This document shows positions 455 to 7,145 of a stretch of 64,000 nt of DNA, piece after piece. Numbering within the stretch: the stretch's first letter is position 1; the number at the start of each line of letters is the position of its first letter. Below the pieces are notes generated by a model, which had not been told where the DNA came from, ran no database searches, and worked only from the letters and a program-made list of their open reading frames with translations. A program made the translations under genes and the position numbers. Source of the stretch: Flavobacterium sasangense DSM 21067 (lineage in GTDB: Bacteria; Bacteroidota; Bacteroidia; Flavobacteriales; Flavobacteriaceae); assembly GCF_000686885.1 (NCBI RefSeq), contig NZ_JMLU01000006.1, positions 62,001 to 126,000 on the forward strand, given 5' to 3'.

Positions 455-1078
455 ATGAAAGTGGTTATTTACTCTAGGGTTTCAACAAATAGTCAAGATT
501 ACAAAAGACAAACAGAAGAATTGTTAGAATTCTCAAAAAATATGAATTATGAGGTAGTTTCTATTTTTGAAGAAAAGATTTCCGGAGGTAAAAAAAATGA
601 GGAACGTTCAGAACTAATGAAAATGATAAACTTTATCAAAAAGAATAAAATTGATAAAGTCCTATGTTGGGAATTAAGTAGATTAGGTAGAAATACCATC
701 GAAGTTCTTAAAACAATTCAGTTGCTTAATGAAAATTGTATTTCTCTTTATATTAAAAATCACAATATCGAAACATTGAATGATAAATGTGAGATCAACC
801 CGATGTCTCAATTTTTAATACAAATTCTTACTTCTGTAAGTGAGATGGAAAAAACTCAAATCCGTCAAAGAATAAAATCGGGTTATGAGAGTTATAGAAA
901 AAATGGCGGGAAAGTTGGCAGAAAAGAAGGATTCAAAAAAGATACCGAAACTCTTTTAACAGAACACAAAGACGTTGTTAAATTGTTAAAACAAGGATAT
1001 TCGGTTAGAAAGACTATGAAACTGACGGATAAAAGTAGCGGAACGATTCAAAAAATTAAAAAACTTATTTCAGAATAA
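455..1078 (+). CDS. Small serine recombinase (resolvase/invertase family)
   Basis: A site-specific DNA recombinase of 207 residues. The N-terminal resolvase domain (about 1-140) starts with the family signature YSRVST, with the catalytic serine at residue 10, and carries the conserved block around residues 92-99 (ELSRLGRN). A long helix with the SEMEKTQIRQRI motif follows, then a short C-terminal helix-turn-helix (about 155-205), as in Tn3-type resolvases and DNA invertases. It is too short for a large serine integrase. It could resolve element dimers, invert a segment or drive excision. The ATG start follows directly on a repeat copy. The next small gene begins one base after its stop and is probably co-transcribed. 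Confidence 0.9.
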   Translation: MKVVIYSRVSTNSQDYKRQTEELLEFSKNMNYEVVSIFEEKISGGKKNEERSELMKMINFIKKNKIDKVLCWELSRLGRNTIEVLKTIQLLNENCISLYIKNHNIETLNDKCEINPMSQFLIQILTSVSEMEKTQIRQRIKSGYESYRKNGGKVGRKEGFKKDTETLLTEHKDVVKLLKQGYSVRKTMKLTDKSSGTIQKIKKLISE

Positions 1079-1079
1079 A

Positions 1080-1262
1080 ATGGATACCTCAACAAAATAC
1101 TACGAATTAAAAACCAAGATCGAAAAGGATTTAACGATATTAAATCAAAAACTAGAAAAACATCAAAATAGTTTTGAAAAGAACAAATCTAATTGGGGTT
1201 ATGTTGGAGACCTTGAATATATCAGTAAAAAAATAAGCGAGATTACAAGTTTTATATCTTAA
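1080..1262 (+). CDS. Small hypothetical protein, coiled-coil like
   Basis: A 60-residue, very polar, Lys/Glu-rich protein with a heptad-like pattern over about residues 8-45, suggesting a short coiled coil. I do not recognise it. Its ATG lies one base after the recombinase stop codon, so translational coupling is likely, and it may act with the recombinase. Its stop overlaps the stop of the convergent XRE gene by four bases. Confidence 0.5.
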   Translation: MDTSTKYYELKTKIEKDLTILNQKLEKHQNSFEKNKSNWGYVGDLEYISKKISEITSFIS

Positions 1263-1498
1263 ACAAAATTAAACAGCTCGGCAACCGAAACCCCCAAAGC
1301 TCTTGTTATTTTTAACATTGTAGAAATCTTCATTTCTTGCTTTCCTTTAATATACTTCCTTAAATTTTCCACGTCCATATCGGCATCGTGAGCGACTTCA
1401 CGGGTCTTTAGTTTTTTGGATTTAATCAACTCTTCAATTCTTTTTCCAAGGAGTATAACTTCTTGATTTACCTCCGATTTTCTTGCTCTTTTTTCCAT
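1259..1498 (-). CDS. XRE-family helix-turn-helix repressor
   Basis: A 79-residue DNA-binding protein. A Cro/C1-type helix-turn-helix occupies about residues 16-75, with the usual pattern of a charged first helix, the second helix near LKTREVAHDADM, the recognition helix near VENLRKYIKGK, and the closing ALGVSVAELF motif. The short N-terminal tail is basic. It is transcribed away from the operon starting at 1650, and the shared intergenic region holds short palindromes overlapping a candidate rightward promoter. This layout suggests a phage-like or element regulator controlling that operon. Its target is inferred only from position. Confidence 0.8.
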   Translation of the reverse strand: MEKRARKSEVNQEVILLGKRIEELIKSKKLKTREVAHDADMDVENLRKYIKGKQEMKISTMLKITRALGVSVAELFNFV

Positions 1499-1649: not shown

Positions 1650-1898
1650 TTGAATATAAAAGTAATAATAAGGATACACGATTTAATTTGTATAGAACAA
1701 ACCGGAAAACCATCAGAATTCGCTAATAAAATTGGAATTTCCAAAAGAAGTCTATACGAATACTTATCCTTTATGAAGTGTGAAATGGATGCACCAATAG
1801 TTTTCAATAGAGTAAAAGAAAGTTATGAATATTATATAGAGTGCAGTTTGTGTTTTAAACAGAAATTAGAAATAGAATATCAAAATTCAATAAAATGA
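1650..1898 (+). CDS. Small helix-turn-helix protein
   Basis: An 82-residue protein whose central part (about residues 20-42) reads as a helix-turn-helix that resembles small Bacteroidota DNA-binding proteins next to exported or signalling genes. The only fitting start is TTG; no ATG is available in frame nearby. Its stop codon overlaps the start of the following signal-peptide gene (ATGA), so the two are translationally coupled. Cys residues near the C-terminus (76 on the DNA scale of 1830-1860) could be incidental. A regulatory role for the downstream operon is inferred. Confidence 0.6.
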   Translation: MNIKVIIRIHDLICIEQTGKPSEFANKIGISKRSLYEYLSFMKCEMDAPIVFNRVKESYEYYIECSLCFKQKLEIEYQNSIK

Positions 1899-2377
1899 AA
1901 AAAACATTTTTTTATACAATCATATTGCTTATAACCTTAAACACTTACGCTCAAAATAACGATACCGAATTGAGTGATGAATATAAAGAAGGAGCTTTTC
2001 AAGGAGTCGAAGAAACAAATGGACACAATCCAATGGTTGATAAATTAACCCCAAATGATGTAGGTAGAACGGTGATTATTGAACACCTTGAAATAATGAC
2101 ACGTGATATTGGAAAATTAAATTGGGAAGATGCAAAAATAGCTTGTGTGAATCTCGGAAAAGGTTGGAGATTACCTACTATGAATGACTTAAAACTTCTT
2201 TACTTGAATAGATCAAAAATAGGAAATTTTGCCGAGGGTAAATGCTATTGGTCATCGGATAATCTATATGAAAAAGCATATTTCAGATATTTCAACAATC
2301 TATATCTAAACGCTATGGATACCGAAAAAACTTGGGAATTATATGTAAGACCAGTTAGAACTTTTGTTAAAAATTAA
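1895..2377 (+). CDS. Exported DUF1566-like protein
   Basis: A 160-residue protein with a clear signal peptide (hydrophobic core at about residues 5-17, cleavage near YAQ). The mature part contains the pattern of the DUF1566/Lcl family: 'lnWedAkiaC', 'GWRLPTmndL' around residues 88-98, then 'yWSSd' and a closing 'VRPVR' near the end. This domain is found in surface and secreted proteins of many Bacteroidota, and its biochemical role is not defined. It overlaps the upstream helix-turn-helix gene by four bases and is followed by two more exported proteins, so the group looks like surface cargo of the element. Confidence 0.75.
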   Translation: MKKTFFYTIILLITLNTYAQNNDTELSDEYKEGAFQGVEETNGHNPMVDKLTPNDVGRTVIIEHLEIMTRDIGKLNWEDAKIACVNLGKGWRLPTMNDLKLLYLNRSKIGNFAEGKCYWSSDNLYEKAYFRYFNNLYLNAMDTEKTWELYVRPVRTFVKN

Positions 2378-2387
2378 ATTTATCTGT

Positions 2388-2822
2388 ATGAAAAAAATAA
2401 CATTATCATTTTTATTAGTCCTTTTAACTTCAATGAGTTTTGCTCAAGTTAAAAAAAATCCAAACCTAAAACTTTATACCAAATACGAATGTTCGGCTTT
2501 GGATGATTTTTTAAACACTAATGATTATTTGAGTTGTGATAAATCAAGCCAATACCGATTTTACTCTTTTAGCATTACAGATACCAAAATTGTTGTATCA
2601 GAACTTAATAAAATGCAACAAGTTTTATCTAAAGATGAGTGTGAGGATTTAATACTTGAAAAAAGAAAAGATTATGATGTTTACACAAGGGACAATGATA
2701 GACGAGAGGGAGAATTTGGTTTTCAACAATATTATATTTCAAAAGACAAAAAGAAAATAATTAATGTTTTCCATGGTCAATACGGAGCAGTTTATCACAC
2801 CTTTTACATATTAAACAAATAA
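2388..2822 (+). CDS. Exported hypothetical protein
   Basis: A 144-residue protein of unknown function. The start at 2388 gives a textbook signal peptide ending at about SFAQ (residue 20). A longer frame from 2364 would put eight residues in front of it and overlap the upstream gene, so I prefer 2388. Two Cys pairs (near residues 40-50 and 80) could form disulfides after export. It sits 10 bases after the DUF1566-like gene and 17 bases before a lipoprotein gene. No family is recognised. Confidence 0.65.
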   Translation: MKKITLSFLLVLLTSMSFAQVKKNPNLKLYTKYECSALDDFLNTNDYLSCDKSSQYRFYSFSITDTKIVVSELNKMQQVLSKDECEDLILEKRKDYDVYTRDNDRREGEFGFQQYYISKDKKKIINVFHGQYGAVYHTFYILNK

Positions 2823-2839
2823 ATAAAACCTAAACAATT

Positions 2840-3517
2840 ATGAAAAAACAATTAGTAGTAGCATCATTAATAATGCTAGGTATTTTTACAATCTCTTGCG
2901 GTGGTAAAAATGGAGAAACAAAATCAGAATCAGAAGCTAAAACAGAGGAAGTTGCAGATTGTCCTTGCAATAGTTTAATGGATGAATCAGGTAGTTTGAT
3001 AAATAAAAATTTTACAGGGATTTGCGCTGATAAAGATCAAAATGATACTATTATTCTTAAAAGAGAATATAAAAATGGTTATTTAATTAGTGAAATGACA
3101 AAGCAAAAAGTAAATGGTAAATACTATATCACTAAAGAAATGACTTATGATAATGGTAAAGAATTAAATGGTTTTAATATTTCAACAAATACTTACGGTG
3201 GATGCTTATGTATTAGTAAATATGATGAATATAAAAATGGTAAGGTTATCAAATCATATAAAACAGATATTTATGGAAAATCTATCAGTGCTGCATGGCA
3301 TATTAAAGACGGAGTTGTGTTAGATGAATATTCTGATGAAAATATCAATGAAGAATCCAGACCGAAATCTATGCCTGATGCTGAACCTGATTTTGGATAC
3401 AGACTTGGTAGTGCTAATATCTGGAGGTTGGAAGATTTAGACCCTTCAACGTTTGATAAAGTTATTAAAGATTTAGAAAAAGAATTTCCACATTTTTTCT
3501 ATTCAGATAATAATTAA
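2840..3517 (+). CDS. Hypothetical lipoprotein with MORN-like repeats
   Basis: A 225-residue lipoprotein: a type II signal peptide with lipobox TISC, lipidated at Cys20, followed by a Ser/Glu-rich linker. The mature part holds repeated 'yKNGylisem', 'YdNGKel', 'YKNGKviKsY' segments (about residues 75-160) reminiscent of MORN/toxin-antitoxin 'YwtI-like' repeats seen in Bacteroidota surface proteins. It is the last gene of the three exported proteins and is followed by an intrinsic terminator. Function is unknown; an outer membrane surface location is likely but not shown. Confidence 0.65.
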   Translation: MKKQLVVASLIMLGIFTISCGGKNGETKSESEAKTEEVADCPCNSLMDESGSLINKNFTGICADKDQNDTIILKREYKNGYLISEMTKQKVNGKYYITKEMTYDNGKELNGFNISTNTYGGCLCISKYDEYKNGKVIKSYKTDIYGKSISAAWHIKDGVVLDEYSDENINEESRPKSMPDAEPDFGYRLGSANIWRLEDLDPSTFDKVIKDLEKEFPHFFYSDNN

Positions 3518-3548
3518 TGAAAGGTTAATTTTGACGTTTCGCAAAATT

Positions 3549-3574
3549 GGGTTGTCTTTTGGACAACCTTTTTT
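3549..3574 (+). terminator. Intrinsic terminator after the exported-protein operon
   Basis: GGTTGTC (3550-3556) pairs with GACAACC (3562-3568) around a five-base loop, followed by six T residues. It lies 32 bases after the lipoprotein stop. Confidence 0.85.
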
Positions 3575-3585
3575 ATATATACAAA

Positions 3586-3861
3586 ATGAGGGTCAAATAT
3601 AAAATCAACAAAAGAGGCAAAACAATTAAACCTCAACAACTCCTTAAAATCTTTACAGATTGTGATACTCAAAAACTATTAATCAACTTCGAGAATGGAA
3701 CTATTGAAAATGATTTAGTCAATAATTGGGAGGTGATCTATTATTTTGATGTTTTGGACGCTGTCCTTACATTTTCTATTGATGAATATGATAGTATACA
3801 CCAATTACTAAAATCGTTTGTTAGGAACAAAAAAATTGATGAGGTTTTGAAAAAAAATTAA
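3586..3861 (+). CDS. Small hypothetical protein
   Basis: A 91-residue protein that I do not recognise. A longer frame opens with TTG at 3547, but that start would lie inside the terminator hairpin, so the ATG at 3586 is preferred. The N-terminus is very basic (KIKNKRGK type) and the rest is a mix of acidic helices without Cys or membrane segments. A strong terminator follows within seven bases, so it is a single-gene unit. Confidence 0.5.
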   Translation: MRVKYKINKRGKTIKPQQLLKIFTDCDTQKLLINFENGTIENDLVNNWEVIYYFDVLDAVLTFSIDEYDSIHQLLKSFVRNKKIDEVLKKN

Positions 3862-4152: not shown

Positions 4153-4650
4153 ATGAATGGAGCATCAATTTTCGATGGCGGTTTTACTACTTATCCAAAG
4201 ATTTTTATTTCGGGAGGAATGAAAAAACGAAAAAGAGTAATAGACGAAAGTCTAATTGTTGTTAAGTCCTTTATAATGGGACCGGACAAAACAACAAAAA
4301 ACGGGTATATCAATAATCTTAAAAACAACTTGGGGATTATTGAAGGTGGGGTAAGAACTTTTAAAACGAGATTTATCTCGGGGAACAAATCTGTTAAGTA
4401 TAACGGATATGATTTACAACTAGTGGTTAAAAATGGTCTGATAAATTTATCAGTATCATTAGACGGACAAACAATGTTGTTTGATTGCTGGAGTATTAAT
4501 TCAGTAGCAAACAAATTAAGCCAAAAAAATCACAAATGCGATTTTTTTGATGCGGTGTATGTTGAGGATTTAATAAACAAAGGAAGATTAAAAGTAAAGT
4601 TTAACGTGAGTAAATTAAAAAACCACGGAACAACTTGGAAGATAGTGTAA
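4153..4650 (+). CDS. Hypothetical protein of the element
   Basis: A 165-residue soluble protein that I do not recognise. It is rich in Gly, Lys and Asn with predicted beta structure (for example LQLVVKNGLINLSVSL near the middle), and a basic KKRKR segment near residues 24-28 suggests nucleic acid contact. There is no signal peptide. It has a long AT-rich leader with a possible promoter and ends at a bidirectional terminator shared with the convergent Rep-like gene. It may be a structural or DNA-binding protein of the element; this is a guess from position only. Confidence 0.55.
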   Translation: MNGASIFDGGFTTYPKIFISGGMKKRKRVIDESLIVVKSFIMGPDKTTKNGYINNLKNNLGIIEGGVRTFKTRFISGNKSVKYNGYDLQLVVKNGLINLSVSLDGQTMLFDCWSINSVANKLSQKNHKCDFFDAVYVEDLINKGRLKVKFNVSKLKNHGTTWKIV

Positions 4651-4702: not shown

Positions 4703-4736
4703 AAAAGGGTTTAGCAATTTTGTTAAACCCTTTTTT
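4703..4736. terminator. Bidirectional terminator
   Basis: AAAAGGGTTTA (4703-4713) pairs with TAAACCCTTTT (4724-4734), with A and T runs on the two sides so it can work in both directions. It separates the convergent genes ending at 4650 and 4735 and overlaps the stop codon of the latter. Confidence 0.85.
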
Positions 4737-5220
4737 ACATCCTTATTTTGTAGTTGTAATTGTCAATGGTAAATAAATCCTTTTGTTTGAGTAAGTAATT
4801 TACAAAATTGTTTTTGTCATTTCTCTTGGTGATGTCCTCAATATGAATGTCGGGTTTTCTAAATGTGGTTTGGATATAATATTCTAAATGTTGAGGTGTA
4901 ATGGTGGTTTCCAAAACAATATGAGTATGAACCTCACAACTATCGGGGATTTGATTTCCCATAGAAACCTTGGTTGGATATTCAATAACAAAAAGATAAT
5001 TTAATTTTTCAAATGAGTTTTTATAATCCTTGAAAATTCGGTTGAAAAATTTATTGGTTAAAATGAACCTCAACTCTTCGGTGGTTTTGCAACCTGTGTT
5101 GTTTATGGTTATGGAGTAAATAGGGTCGTTTTGGGAGGTTATTTTGGAAAAACTATATCTTATATCGTCCTCGATCATTTGGGTTGTTTTGGGAGCGTTA
5201 TTCTTTTTAAGGAGAACCAT
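4735..5220 (-). CDS. Candidate HUH-type replication initiator (Rep-like)
   Basis: A 161-residue protein with the ordered motifs of HUH endonucleases that nick DNA to start rolling-circle replication. These are a hydrophobic strand with conserved Glu (FVIEY, residues 77-81), the metal-binding His-x-His in a hydrophobic setting (VHTHIVLE, His98 and His100), and a C-terminal Tyr-x-x-Lys (YLLK, Tyr142 and Lys145). Order and spacing resemble small Reps of ssDNA phages and plasmids. No helicase domain is present. The ATG at 5220 is preferred over a TTG at 5253. It is the last gene of a leftward cluster of small proteins and ends at a terminator. Family assignment rests on motifs read by eye. Confidence 0.6.
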   Translation of the reverse strand: MVLLKKNNAPKTTQMIEDDIRYSFSKITSQNDPIYSITINNTGCKTTEELRFILTNKFFNRIFKDYKNSFEKLNYLFVIEYPTKVSMGNQIPDSCEVHTHIVLETTITPQHLEYYIQTTFRKPDIHIEDITKRNDKNNFVNYLLKQKDLFTIDNYNYKIRM

Positions 5221-5347
5221 TATCAATTTTAACTTTATATATAATTCAACCAAGAACGGATAAAAACATCCGTCCTAAACTGAATTATTGGTGTTGCTTT
5301 TTATTGCTTTCGATTCACTTTTATTCCAGAGTGTGAGAACTCATTTT

Positions 5348-5500
5348 TTAATTTAGTTTTTCAATTTTTGCTTTTAATTCCTCAATCTTAATTTTCAATT
5401 TTAACTTTTCTCGTTTCTTAAAATCTTTTTCGATATTCAATTTGTCTTTGTATATCTGTATCTTACCTTGATAATCCCGAACCTTGTTCCAGTCAATCAT
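5348..5500 (-). CDS. 50-residue coiled-coil protein
   Basis: A short frame with ATG at 5500 and stop at 5348. The product is highly charged (about half Lys, Glu, Asp or Arg) with Ile/Leu at heptad spacing from residue 12 to the end, so it is likely a single coiled coil. The start ATGATTGA overlaps the last codons and stop of the upstream helix-turn-helix gene, a typical coupling arrangement, which supports real translation. Function is unknown; it could partner with the acidic coiled-coil protein at the head of the same operon. Confidence 0.5.
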   Translation of the reverse strand: MIDWNKVRDYQGKIQIYKDKLNIEKDFKKREKLKLKIKIEELKAKIEKLN

Positions 5501-5708
5501 TTTGCTTGTTTAATTTTTCAATCAATATAACTTCCATCAACTCAAATAAAGTAGTTTCCGGATATAAAAACAGATTCTTATATTTTATGATTTCCGGTTG
5601 TTGCTTTTTTAGTTCTCTTTGAACTTTTGACTTTGAAACATTTAGGATTCTTGTAATGGTTTCAACATCATAAAGTTTTTTATCTTCGGCTATAAAGTGA
5701 ATAATCAT
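5493..5708 (-). CDS. Small helix-turn-helix protein
   Basis: A 71-residue protein with a MerR- or excisionase-like winged helix-turn-helix: 'yDVETITRILNVSKSKVQREL' covers about residues 13-33, followed by a wing-like segment (YKNLFLYPE). Such small proteins serve as transcription regulators or recombination directionality factors in mobile elements. It overlaps the upstream acidic gene by 29 bases and the next 50-residue gene by eight bases, so the three are one translational unit leading towards the Rep-like gene. Which role applies cannot be told from sequence. Confidence 0.65.
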   Translation of the reverse strand: MIIHFIAEDKKLYDVETITRILNVSKSKVQRELKKQQPEIIKYKNLFLYPETTLFELMEVILIEKLNKQND

Positions 5709-5955
5709 TTTTCAAATTCTTATATTTTTCGGAGAGTTTGTTGTATTCCTCAATCAATTCGTCAAGATCTAAATCGTCATCCTCTTTTAATTTTCTTTTA
5801 GGTTCTTCGGGAGCTTCGATATTGTCGATGTCGTCAATAAGTTCGTCATCCGAAACATTTGTTTCCTCGTCATTCAATTCGTCTTGGAGTTCTTTATTGT
5901 ATTTCTCAATAATAAACTTAAAGAAGTTCGTTTGAAGGTGTTTTCTTTTTTTCAT
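5680..5955 (-). CDS. Acidic coiled-coil protein
   Basis: A 91-residue protein with a basic N-terminus (KKRKHLQ), a long Asp/Glu-rich middle (about residues 25-70) and a C-terminal heptad segment. The acidic stretch could mimic DNA or bind a basic partner. I recognise no family. It is the first gene of the leftward cluster; its end overlaps the next gene by 29 bases. Upstream lies a 260-base gene-free stretch with inverted repeats. Confidence 0.55.
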   Translation of the reverse strand: MKKRKHLQTNFFKFIIEKYNKELQDELNDEETNVSDDELIDDIDNIEAPEEPKRKLKEDDDLDLDELIEEYNKLSEKYKNLKNDYSLYSRR

Positions 5956-6164: not shown

Positions 6165-6209
6165 CAAAAACGTCTTAACACATTGATTTACAATTAGTTA
6201 AGACGTTTT
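6165..6209 (-). terminator. Terminator downstream of tRNA-Phe
   Basis: AAAACGTCTTAAC (6167-6179) and GTTAAGACGTTTT (6197-6209) form a perfect 13 bp stem with a 17-base loop. Read leftward it is followed by TTTTTGTTTTT. It lies directly after the tRNA 3' end. Confidence 0.8.
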
Positions 6210-6215
6210 ATGGTG

Positions 6216-6288
6216 TGGTACCTCCAGGGATCGAACCAGGGACACATGGATTTTCAGTCCATTGCTCTACCATCTGAGCTAAGGTACC
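6216..6288 (-). tRNA. tRNA-Phe (GAA)
   Basis: A 73-base cloverleaf with acceptor arms GGTACCT and AGGTACC, D-arm containing AGCTCAGATGGTAGAGC, anticodon loop CTGAAAA (anticodon GAA) and T-arm GGTTCGATCCC. The CCA end is not encoded directly after the discriminator A. Its 3' end faces the accessory region on the left, so it is the probable integration target of that element. Confidence 0.95.
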
Positions 6289-6410: not shown

Positions 6411-7145
6411 ATGCTTTTAACAATCGATGTTGGAAATTCAAGAATTAAAGTTGCTGTATTTGAACACAATAAGCAAGTTGACTTTTTTATTTTTGAAACA
6501 AATGAAGCGCTAAAAAATTTTAAAAATATTTTTAAAAAATATTCTAATCTTCAAAAAATCATACTTTCTTCGGTCGGAAAACTAGATGAAGACATGGTGA
6601 ATTTTATCAAAAGCCAGTTTGAAACAGAAATAATCACACACAAATCGAAGTTTCCTTTCACTAATTTATATTCGACTCCCGAAACTTTAGGAATAGATCG
6701 AATGGTTTTAGCCGCTGGCGCTACCTTGATGCATCCTAATCAAAATAGATTAATTATTGATGCCGGAACCTGTATTACTTATGATTTTGTAAATTCTGAA
6801 GACCAATATTTAGGAGGTGCAATATCTCCAGGAATTAAAATTAGATACAAGAGTTTAAACAATTACACTTCAAAATTGCCGTTATTATCTTTAAGTGAAG
6901 ATTTTGATATCATTGGAAATAGTACAAAAAGTGCCATTCATAGCGGTGTAATTAACGGAGTTCTCTTTGAAATTGAAGGGTTTATTTCACAATATTCTCT
7001 TAAAAATCAAGATTTAACAATAATTTTAACAGGAGGAGACGCAGAATTTTTGGCTAAAAGATTAAAAAGCACCATATTTGCCAATTCAAATTTCTTACTA
7101 GAGAGTTTGAACTTATTATCACTATACACAGAAAAAAATGATTAA
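6411..7145 (+). CDS. coaX: Type III pantothenate kinase
   Basis: Phosphorylates pantothenate with ATP, the first step of coenzyme A synthesis, in the cytosol. The 244-residue length fits CoaX. Family motifs are present: TIDVGNSRIK with Asp5 at the N-terminus (phosphate-binding loop of the ASKHA fold), GIDRM with Asp97, and IIDAGTC with Asp117, followed by GGAISPGI. It heads a rightward run of envelope genes; its end overlaps the next gene by eight bases, so the two are probably co-translated. This order (coaX, outer membrane protein, TPR protein, lptC) is typical of Flavobacterium relatives. Confidence 0.95.
   Translation: MLLTIDVGNSRIKVAVFEHNKQVDFFIFETNEALKNFKNIFKKYSNLQKIILSSVGKLDEDMVNFIKSQFETEIITHKSKFPFTNLYSTPETLGIDRMVLAAGATLMHPNQNRLIIDAGTCITYDFVNSEDQYLGGAISPGIKIRYKSLNNYTSKLPLLSLSEDFDIIGNSTKSAIHSGVINGVLFEIEGFISQYSLKNQDLTIILTGGDAEFLAKRLKSTIFANSNFLLESLNLLSLYTEKND

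Follow-up and report, generated by a model that had tools for sequence, protein, structure and literature searches.

What does the small minus-strand gene at positions 4735–5220 of the window (the whole 64-kb stretch of DNA analysed here) encode, and does it imply an extrachromosomal stage of the DNA that carries it? On the evidence given below, its product is very probably a small DNA-nicking enzyme with which the copying of a compact mobile element begins after the element has left the chromosome.

Reading frame, motifs and family of the Rep-like protein

4735..5220, minus strand: HUH-type Rep-like protein (Rep), 161 aa; SITI 36–39, E80, HTH 98–100, Y142xxK145

The rep ORF runs on the minus strand from an ATG at 5220 to a stop codon at 4735–4737. 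An alternative frame of 172 aa starts at TTG 5253; since it is broken in two homologous loci, L004 and L005 (see below), the ATG at 5220 is the likelier start. A preliminary description had read this protein as a rolling-circle initiator from the ordered motifs FVIEY (residues 77–81), VHTHIVLE (97–104) and YLLK (142–145), and the positions and order of these motifs as well as profile matches and conservation support an HUH Rep, with the correction that FVIEY is the strand bearing the conserved acid E80 and not the canonical first motif. Motif I is SITI (36–39), which aligns with TLT of viral Reps, and the order is thus SITI, an acid on a strand (E80), HxH and YxxK. An HUH motif placed before the tyrosine is the order of Reps, whereas in relaxases the tyrosine comes before the HUH motif. 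The protein had also been described as having only about 161 residues and no helicase: the ORF has this length and no helicase was recognised among the ORFs scanned by profile, which is not unusual; small rolling-circle Reps usually lack a helicase of their own.

A scan of genome contigs returned two loci, L004 from a Bacteroidetes MAG (the same MAG as genome G888) and L005 from Flavobacterium poyangense (G1129). Strong full-length Rep copies were present in five of 398 genomes sampled from the window's genus (G000, which is the window's own genome, G857, G883, G888 and G895), and a copy in G779 is cut off by the contig end; matches at E ≤ 0.01 numbered 14/398 and 16/398 in two scans, all but the strong copies and G779 being weak. 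No further strong match was found in the samples of the family (2/397 at E ≤ 0.001, one being the own genome and the other a weak match interrupted by a stop), the order (4/395 at E ≤ 0.01, of which three were weak) or the phylum (1/198, the own genome), these samples and that of the genus overlapping, so that the counts are not additive. The weak loci inspected either showed no HxH in their frames (L015, L017, L043 and L049) or had no long frame (L042). Identity of the homologues to the window Rep is 80% (F. poyangense), 82%, 86%, 69% and, in G895, 36%; the copy in F. poyangense suggests that the window's genus is Flavobacterium. Plasmid, phage and IMG/VR collections, queried with the window Rep, the alignments and the L012 copy, yielded no Rep relative, and in the collections searched the family has no close relative outside the genomes named.

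Two features of the HUH superfamily, an HxH in a hydrophobic strand (H98, H100) and a tyrosine C-terminal to it within YxxK (Y142, K145), were found in all six copies of our alignment (A2, from which the truncated G779 copy and duplicates were left out). At 36–86% identity to the window Rep, E80, H98, H100, Y142 and K145 are invariant in 6/6 aligned homologues, which includes the three residues (His98, His100 and Tyr142) whose conservation had been proposed as a check, and I37 and T38 are also among the invariant columns. In a MAFFT alignment, T38, E80, H98, H100, Y142 and K145 fell into columns of two viral Reps, YxxK sharing its column with their YxxK.

The best Pfam match of Rep was PF23343 (REP_ORF2-G2P; E = 0.00073, 20.2 bits), and because this is below the cut-off of 27.8 bits we did not file Rep in this family and treat it, on sequence grounds, as a distant relative and not a member. 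REP_ORF2-G2P matched five of the six family members at E ≤ 1 with no other HUH family listed, scoring 18.1 bits for the L011 copy and giving no match for L012 (36% identical). The only PHROG match was phrog_3584, 'replication initiation protein' (E = 0.0015); neither Y1_Tnp (PF01797) nor a plasmid Rep family matched Rep in Pfam at E ≤ 1, and NCBIfam gave no match. Sub-threshold matches to unrelated Pfam families were VWA_4 (E = 0.0064), seen below threshold in four of the six family members, and DUF4790 (E = 0.037).

Comparison of A2 by hhalign with a profile of nine inovirus-type Reps, of which six come from genomes of the same bacterial family, two are from IMG/VR and the ninth belongs to the phage record MW202486.1, gave a score of 25.6 (E = 0.0022, probability 13%), with ITI aligned to LTL, E80 to a conserved E and HxH to HFH. 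None of 300 column shuffles reached this score (maximum 20.3), 100 further column shuffles against the same Reps gave at most 20.8, and the reversed alignment scored 13.7. The profile comprised six of nine Rep loci plus L054, L055 and L056, with L033, L035 and L036 omitted (no frame, truncated, below cut-off); when only the six Reps were used, the match lost strength (E = 0.014, probability 3%). Nine IS200-type transposases (nine of the 15 Y1 loci obtained, including one identical pair) scored 16.4 and nine PF03432 relaxases (nine of ten loci, same bacterial family) scored 13.3, both out of register, with 3/100 and 30/100 shuffles as high, respectively.

Two AlphaFold2 models of Rep were of low confidence (mean pLDDT 46.0 and, for the second, which was seeded with two viral Reps, 53.2), and both presented a strand, a helix (47–66), a strand, a strand with HxH, a helix and a helix with Tyr142. 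From these low-confidence models, Foldseek returned no match reaching E 0.001, RepB (3dkx) being among the insignificant ones (E = 0.83), and in VIA-align (best Z 4.4, low-confidence model) AAV Rep domains with Z 3.3–3.7 stood amid ribosomal and other proteins, the top rows being mostly ribosomal proteins. A PDB sequence search with the window Rep yielded a chance-level phospholipase C only (E 0.094 and above) and no HUH protein, and one with A2 no match.

A DNA-binding regulator without nuclease activity, in which HUH motifs had arisen by chance, would agree with the low-confidence fold models and the sub-threshold family score, but is very improbable in view of the five invariant residues and the hhalign score above shuffles; the Pfam and PHROG matches, the 6/6 invariance and a score above 300/300 shuffles indicate that the motifs are more than chance. 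That Rep is a Y1 transposase of the IS200/RAYT kind, either domesticated or of transposon type, and not an initiator is hardly credible: while such proteins are of similar length with a single HUH domain, Rep has no Y1_Tnp match, the score against the IS200-type proteins was near shuffle level and rep belongs to a cassette conserved in four close relatives. As far as sequence comparison reaches, the HUH Rep identity of the window protein has good support, and the protein is most readily taken as a divergent, stand-alone HUH replication initiator.

An integrative element at tRNA-Phe and its relatives

The rep gene is located in an element of 7,873 bp between 14-bp repeats, of which the right one (attR) is at the 3' end of tRNA-Phe and the identical left one (attL, TGTGGTACCTCCAG) is outside the window, to the left (G000:C6:60341–60354; L003:18341). 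A repeat equally long was obtained in 1/500 shuffles of the two flanks. The GC content of the element is 27.8%, compared with 31.5% and 32.4% in the flanks, and a 488-aa tyrosine integrase adjoins the left repeat just left of the window, so that the integrase and the direct-repeat attachment sites that characterise tyrosine-integrase elements are both present. Besides rep, the following features were found in the window:

455..1078, plus strand: serine recombinase of the resolvase/invertase family, 207 aa (profile matches)
1259..1498, minus strand: Cro/C1-type HTH regulator, 79 aa (profile match)
1895..3517, plus strand: variable cargo of three small genes, their products judged by eye to be secreted or lipoprotein-like
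3547..3861, plus strand: 104-aa protein with homologues in three other compared elements
4153..4650, plus strand: 165-aa protein, 50% identical to the copy in the G857 element
5348..5500, minus strand: small ORF of the Rep cassette, 50 aa (MIDWNK...), by eye; similar 50-aa ORFs in relatives
5493..5708, minus strand: HTH-like protein, 71 aa (PF12728 HTH_17, E = 0.0061, below cut-off)
5680..5955, minus strand: acidic protein, 91 aa, first gene of the Rep cassette
6214..6227: attR, 14-bp repeat TGTGGTACCTCCAG at the tRNA-Phe 3' end
6215..6288, minus strand: tRNA-Phe (gaa), the integration target

The minus-strand Rep cassette consists of the acidic 91-aa protein, the 71-aa HTH-like protein, which is a possible AlpA/Xis-like factor judging from its sub-threshold match, the 50-aa protein and Rep. 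The cargo gave one sub-threshold Lcl_C match, with no match to defence families in the two of its three genes that were scanned, and neither a primase nor a capsid gene was recognised in the ORFs scanned. The extrachromosomal stage proposed in the preliminary description is plausible because the element around rep has attachment repeats as well as an integrase, although neither a circular form nor a plasmid, phage or viral-contig relative was found. Just inside attR there is an inverted repeat (6167–6209, 19-nt arms, 89% complementary), a candidate terminator or recombination site; a similar AAACGTCTTAAC...GTTAAGACGTTTT is present beside the repeat in L026.

Three related elements were delimited, all at other sites than the window element. 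In G895, 28-bp repeats enclose 4,997 bp, in which Rep is accompanied by an integrase, a serine recombinase and small proteins; neither the acidic nor the HTH protein of the cassette was recognised in this element, which has only Rep and the serine recombinase in common with the window element. In F. poyangense, 25-bp repeats enclose 13,280 bp (L053 1266–14570) with an integrase, a serine recombinase and, as cargo, a DRT type 3 pair of reverse transcriptases (Drt3a and Drt3b). The G857 element is about 13.8 kb long with a less certain boundary: its longest repeat was matched by 4/500 shuffles, its 14-bp repeat is probably an integrase arm site, and its 11-bp core, CTAAACCAAAC, is likewise less certain. 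L004 contains an integrase, a serine recombinase and Rep, with the element running off the contig. In G883 the cassette is found at tRNA-Phe beside a gene resembling, by eye, the window neighbour at 6411, and in G779 it follows another element located at tRNA-Phe, each of the two places having a 16-bp repeat of the tRNA end.

The closer relatives have the four-gene Rep cassette in common, the HTH proteins of five copies being 69–88% identical, whereas the integrases of the five compared elements are only 26–31% identical; together with the similar Reps, this indicates that the replicon cassette occurs with different integrases. The serine recombinases are 89–92% identical among three elements and 27–42% identical in the other comparisons.

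Several minor observations were made in these elements. The G857 cargo (L023 2192–4065) includes an Mrr-type restriction endonuclease and a borderline RES-domain protein (23.2 bits at a cut-off of 23.2), which suggests defence or addiction functions, with no PADLOC match in this cargo. In G779 (L026 11548–19663), a tandem of two different integrative elements apparently occupies tRNA-Phe, CTGGAGGTACCACATT being present at each place; the inner element encodes its own integrase-like protein of 430 aa (by eye) and a 303-aa protein that matched no Pfam family. Short motif repeats (TTCCCACTTTTT and AAACGACACAAAAA) that look like integrase arm sites are present at both ends of two elements (L053 1378–1401 and 14464–14499; L022 12279–12298 and L023 5904–5926). 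Between two drafts, L025 (1–2156) and L004 (3–2142), a 189-aa protein, a 97-aa protein and the Rep C-terminus are identical by eye and the N-terminal part of Rep differs, reflecting either recombination inside rep or an assembly chimera.

A candidate origin upstream of rep and the proposed cycle

An alignment of the elements revealed conserved non-coding blocks beside rep, one of them overlapped by an inverted repeat:

5239..5253, minus strand: 15-bp block TTGGTTGAATTATAT, close upstream of where Rep starts
5241..5288: inverted repeat overlapping this block, 21-nt arms, 76% complementary, 6-nt loop
5319..5342, minus strand: iteron-like block GAGTTCTCACACTCTGGAATAAAA, single copy in the window

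The 15-bp block occurs once per element on the rep strand, exact in 4/6 and with one base changed in G895 and G883, a count that describes the six elements and is not a test, the pattern having been written after the alignment was seen. An exact copy is present once in the 64-kb window, and allowing up to two mismatches gives two places, a number matched by 22/100 shuffles. The iteron-like block is located 65–79 bp further upstream; its pattern matched five of the six elements and missed G895, whose two copies were found by eye, two related copies being visible in L011 and L012. The position and conservation of the 15-bp block suggest a candidate nick or binding site and hence an origin. When the inverted repeat was folded as DNA, 2/200 shuffles folded equally well in the window, and among the relatives the numbers of shuffles as good out of 200 were 1 (L005) and 17 (L010), for both of which the shuffled stretches were without part of the 3' arm, 11 (L004), 41 (L011) and 102 (L012). 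The hairpin is therefore weak in L011 and no better than shuffles in L012, its 5' arm aligned poorly across elements, and the two blocks are better supported than the hairpin.

From an anatomy comprising an ORF with conserved motifs, attachment repeats, an integrase and conserved non-coding blocks beside rep, we infer that Rep is probably a single-domain, single-tyrosine HUH replication initiator of the 7.9-kb tRNA-Phe element, which would be copied by the rolling-circle mode after excision. The tyrosine integrase would excise the element as a circle; Rep would bind beside its own gene, at the iteron-like and 15-bp blocks (window 5239–5342), and nick one strand via Y142 with a metal presumably held by H98, H100 and E80. 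Rolling-circle copying would then proceed with helicase and polymerase of the host, and the serine recombinase may resolve multimers, keeping the circle monomeric.

Known systems and the route of spread

With the REP_ORF2-G2P Reps of inovirus-like elements (MW202486.1, L056; G000:C46, L034), the window Rep has the order TLT/SITI, E, HxH and YxxK in common, the first three motifs being in register by hhalign and all of them by MAFFT. It differs from them in length (161 aa versus 299 aa in L056 and 399–415 aa in L034) and, unlike in inovirus-like elements, no inovirus gene was recognised beside it. The single-domain rolling-circle initiator RepB of pMV158 likewise has HUH followed by the tyrosine and no helicase of its own, and its spacing is similar to the 42 residues from H100 to Y142 in the window Rep; however, no plasmid Rep family was among the Pfam matches of Rep.

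Small helicase-free HUH Reps are already known. Integrative elements whose initiator is of the rolling-circle type and could serve to maintain their excised form are known as well (PMC5704250). As in the window element, an initiator of this type is found within an integrative element in streptococcal IMEs and in Tn916 and ICEBs1 (MobT), these IMEs and ICEs using other Rep families (Rep_Trans, Rep_2, Viral_Rep and PHA00330). PICMI satellites, according to PMC10803314, are 6.1 kb long, form concatemers consistent with rolling-circle replication and in some cases carry DRT class II among their defence systems; the elements described here are like them in size, tyrosine integrase, small HTH protein, a single replication protein and defence genes in some, and unlike them in having an HUH Rep in place of the primase, a serine recombinase, several integration sites and no known helper. 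Among the features that define PICMIs, the window element has the integrase, a sub-cut-off HTH_17 match for AlpA, no primase in the ORFs scanned and tRNA-Phe instead of the fis site. The integrative elements of PMC9345347 are likewise small and have a single-strand step, but the strand bias is ascribed there to their own strand-exchange enzymes and not to an HUH nuclease.

Two further readings concern how such an element would spread. If Rep were mainly a non-canonical relaxase, it would nick the excised circle at an oriT for transfer by a resident conjugative element; this overlaps with the initiator reading, and Rep may do both. A Pfam scan of ORFs from the window element and the 5.0-kb G895 element (several of fewer than 120 aa were outside the scan) found no canonical relaxase, which a canonical IME would carry, and 118/144 streptococcal IMEs have putative relaxases related to rolling-circle initiators (PMC5704250). 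Against this, the few known Bacteroidetes IMEs counted in that review have canonical relaxases, MobP or MobV, and the Rep profile shows no resemblance to the PF03432 relaxases compared, nine proteins of the same bacterial family, which leaves a principal role as relaxase unlikely. Somewhat less doubtful is a phage satellite, in which Rep would amplify the element so that a helper phage can package it, while part of the cargo would shield the host from other phages, a reading compatible with an initiator. In its favour are a PICMI-like size, a layout in which an integrase and a small HTH-like protein go with a single replication protein and no capsid gene was recognised in the scanned ORFs, and the Drt3a and Drt3b genes of the F. 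poyangense element, given the DRT class II of some PICMIs (PMC10803314); the missing primase and fis site, the HTH_17 match below cut-off and the fact that neither a helper nor a packaging signal was identified speak against it. After copying, the element may spread by conjugation, which has been proposed for IMEs whose relaxases resemble rolling-circle initiators (PMC5704250), or inside phage particles like the PICMIs (PMC10803314).

Returning to Rep as an initiator, no description of this element family was found in the open-licence literature, and we tentatively consider, as a possibility still short of an even chance, that the elements are a so far undescribed family in the window's genus, living as satellite-like hitchhikers with an HUH-Rep replicon, an origin of their own, varied integrases and variable cargo with anti-phage defence genes among it, spread by a helper. 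If true, a very small replication module would be added to the toolkit of Bacteroidetes integrative elements, and the 5-kb G895 element would be an example on which the genes behind excision, copying and spread could be dissected. The combination of one replicon with different integrases, and in one case with DRT3, is relevant to the way in which small elements carry defences against phages.

The window's own genome also contains, on a separate contig (L034; G000:C46, 754–3071), an inovirus-like Rep in a 415-aa ORF that matches PF23343 over the cut-off, and whose only phage-record matches were three Inoviridae records, e.g. MW202486.1; by eye, this locus also bears a small peptidase and a DNA methyltransferase.
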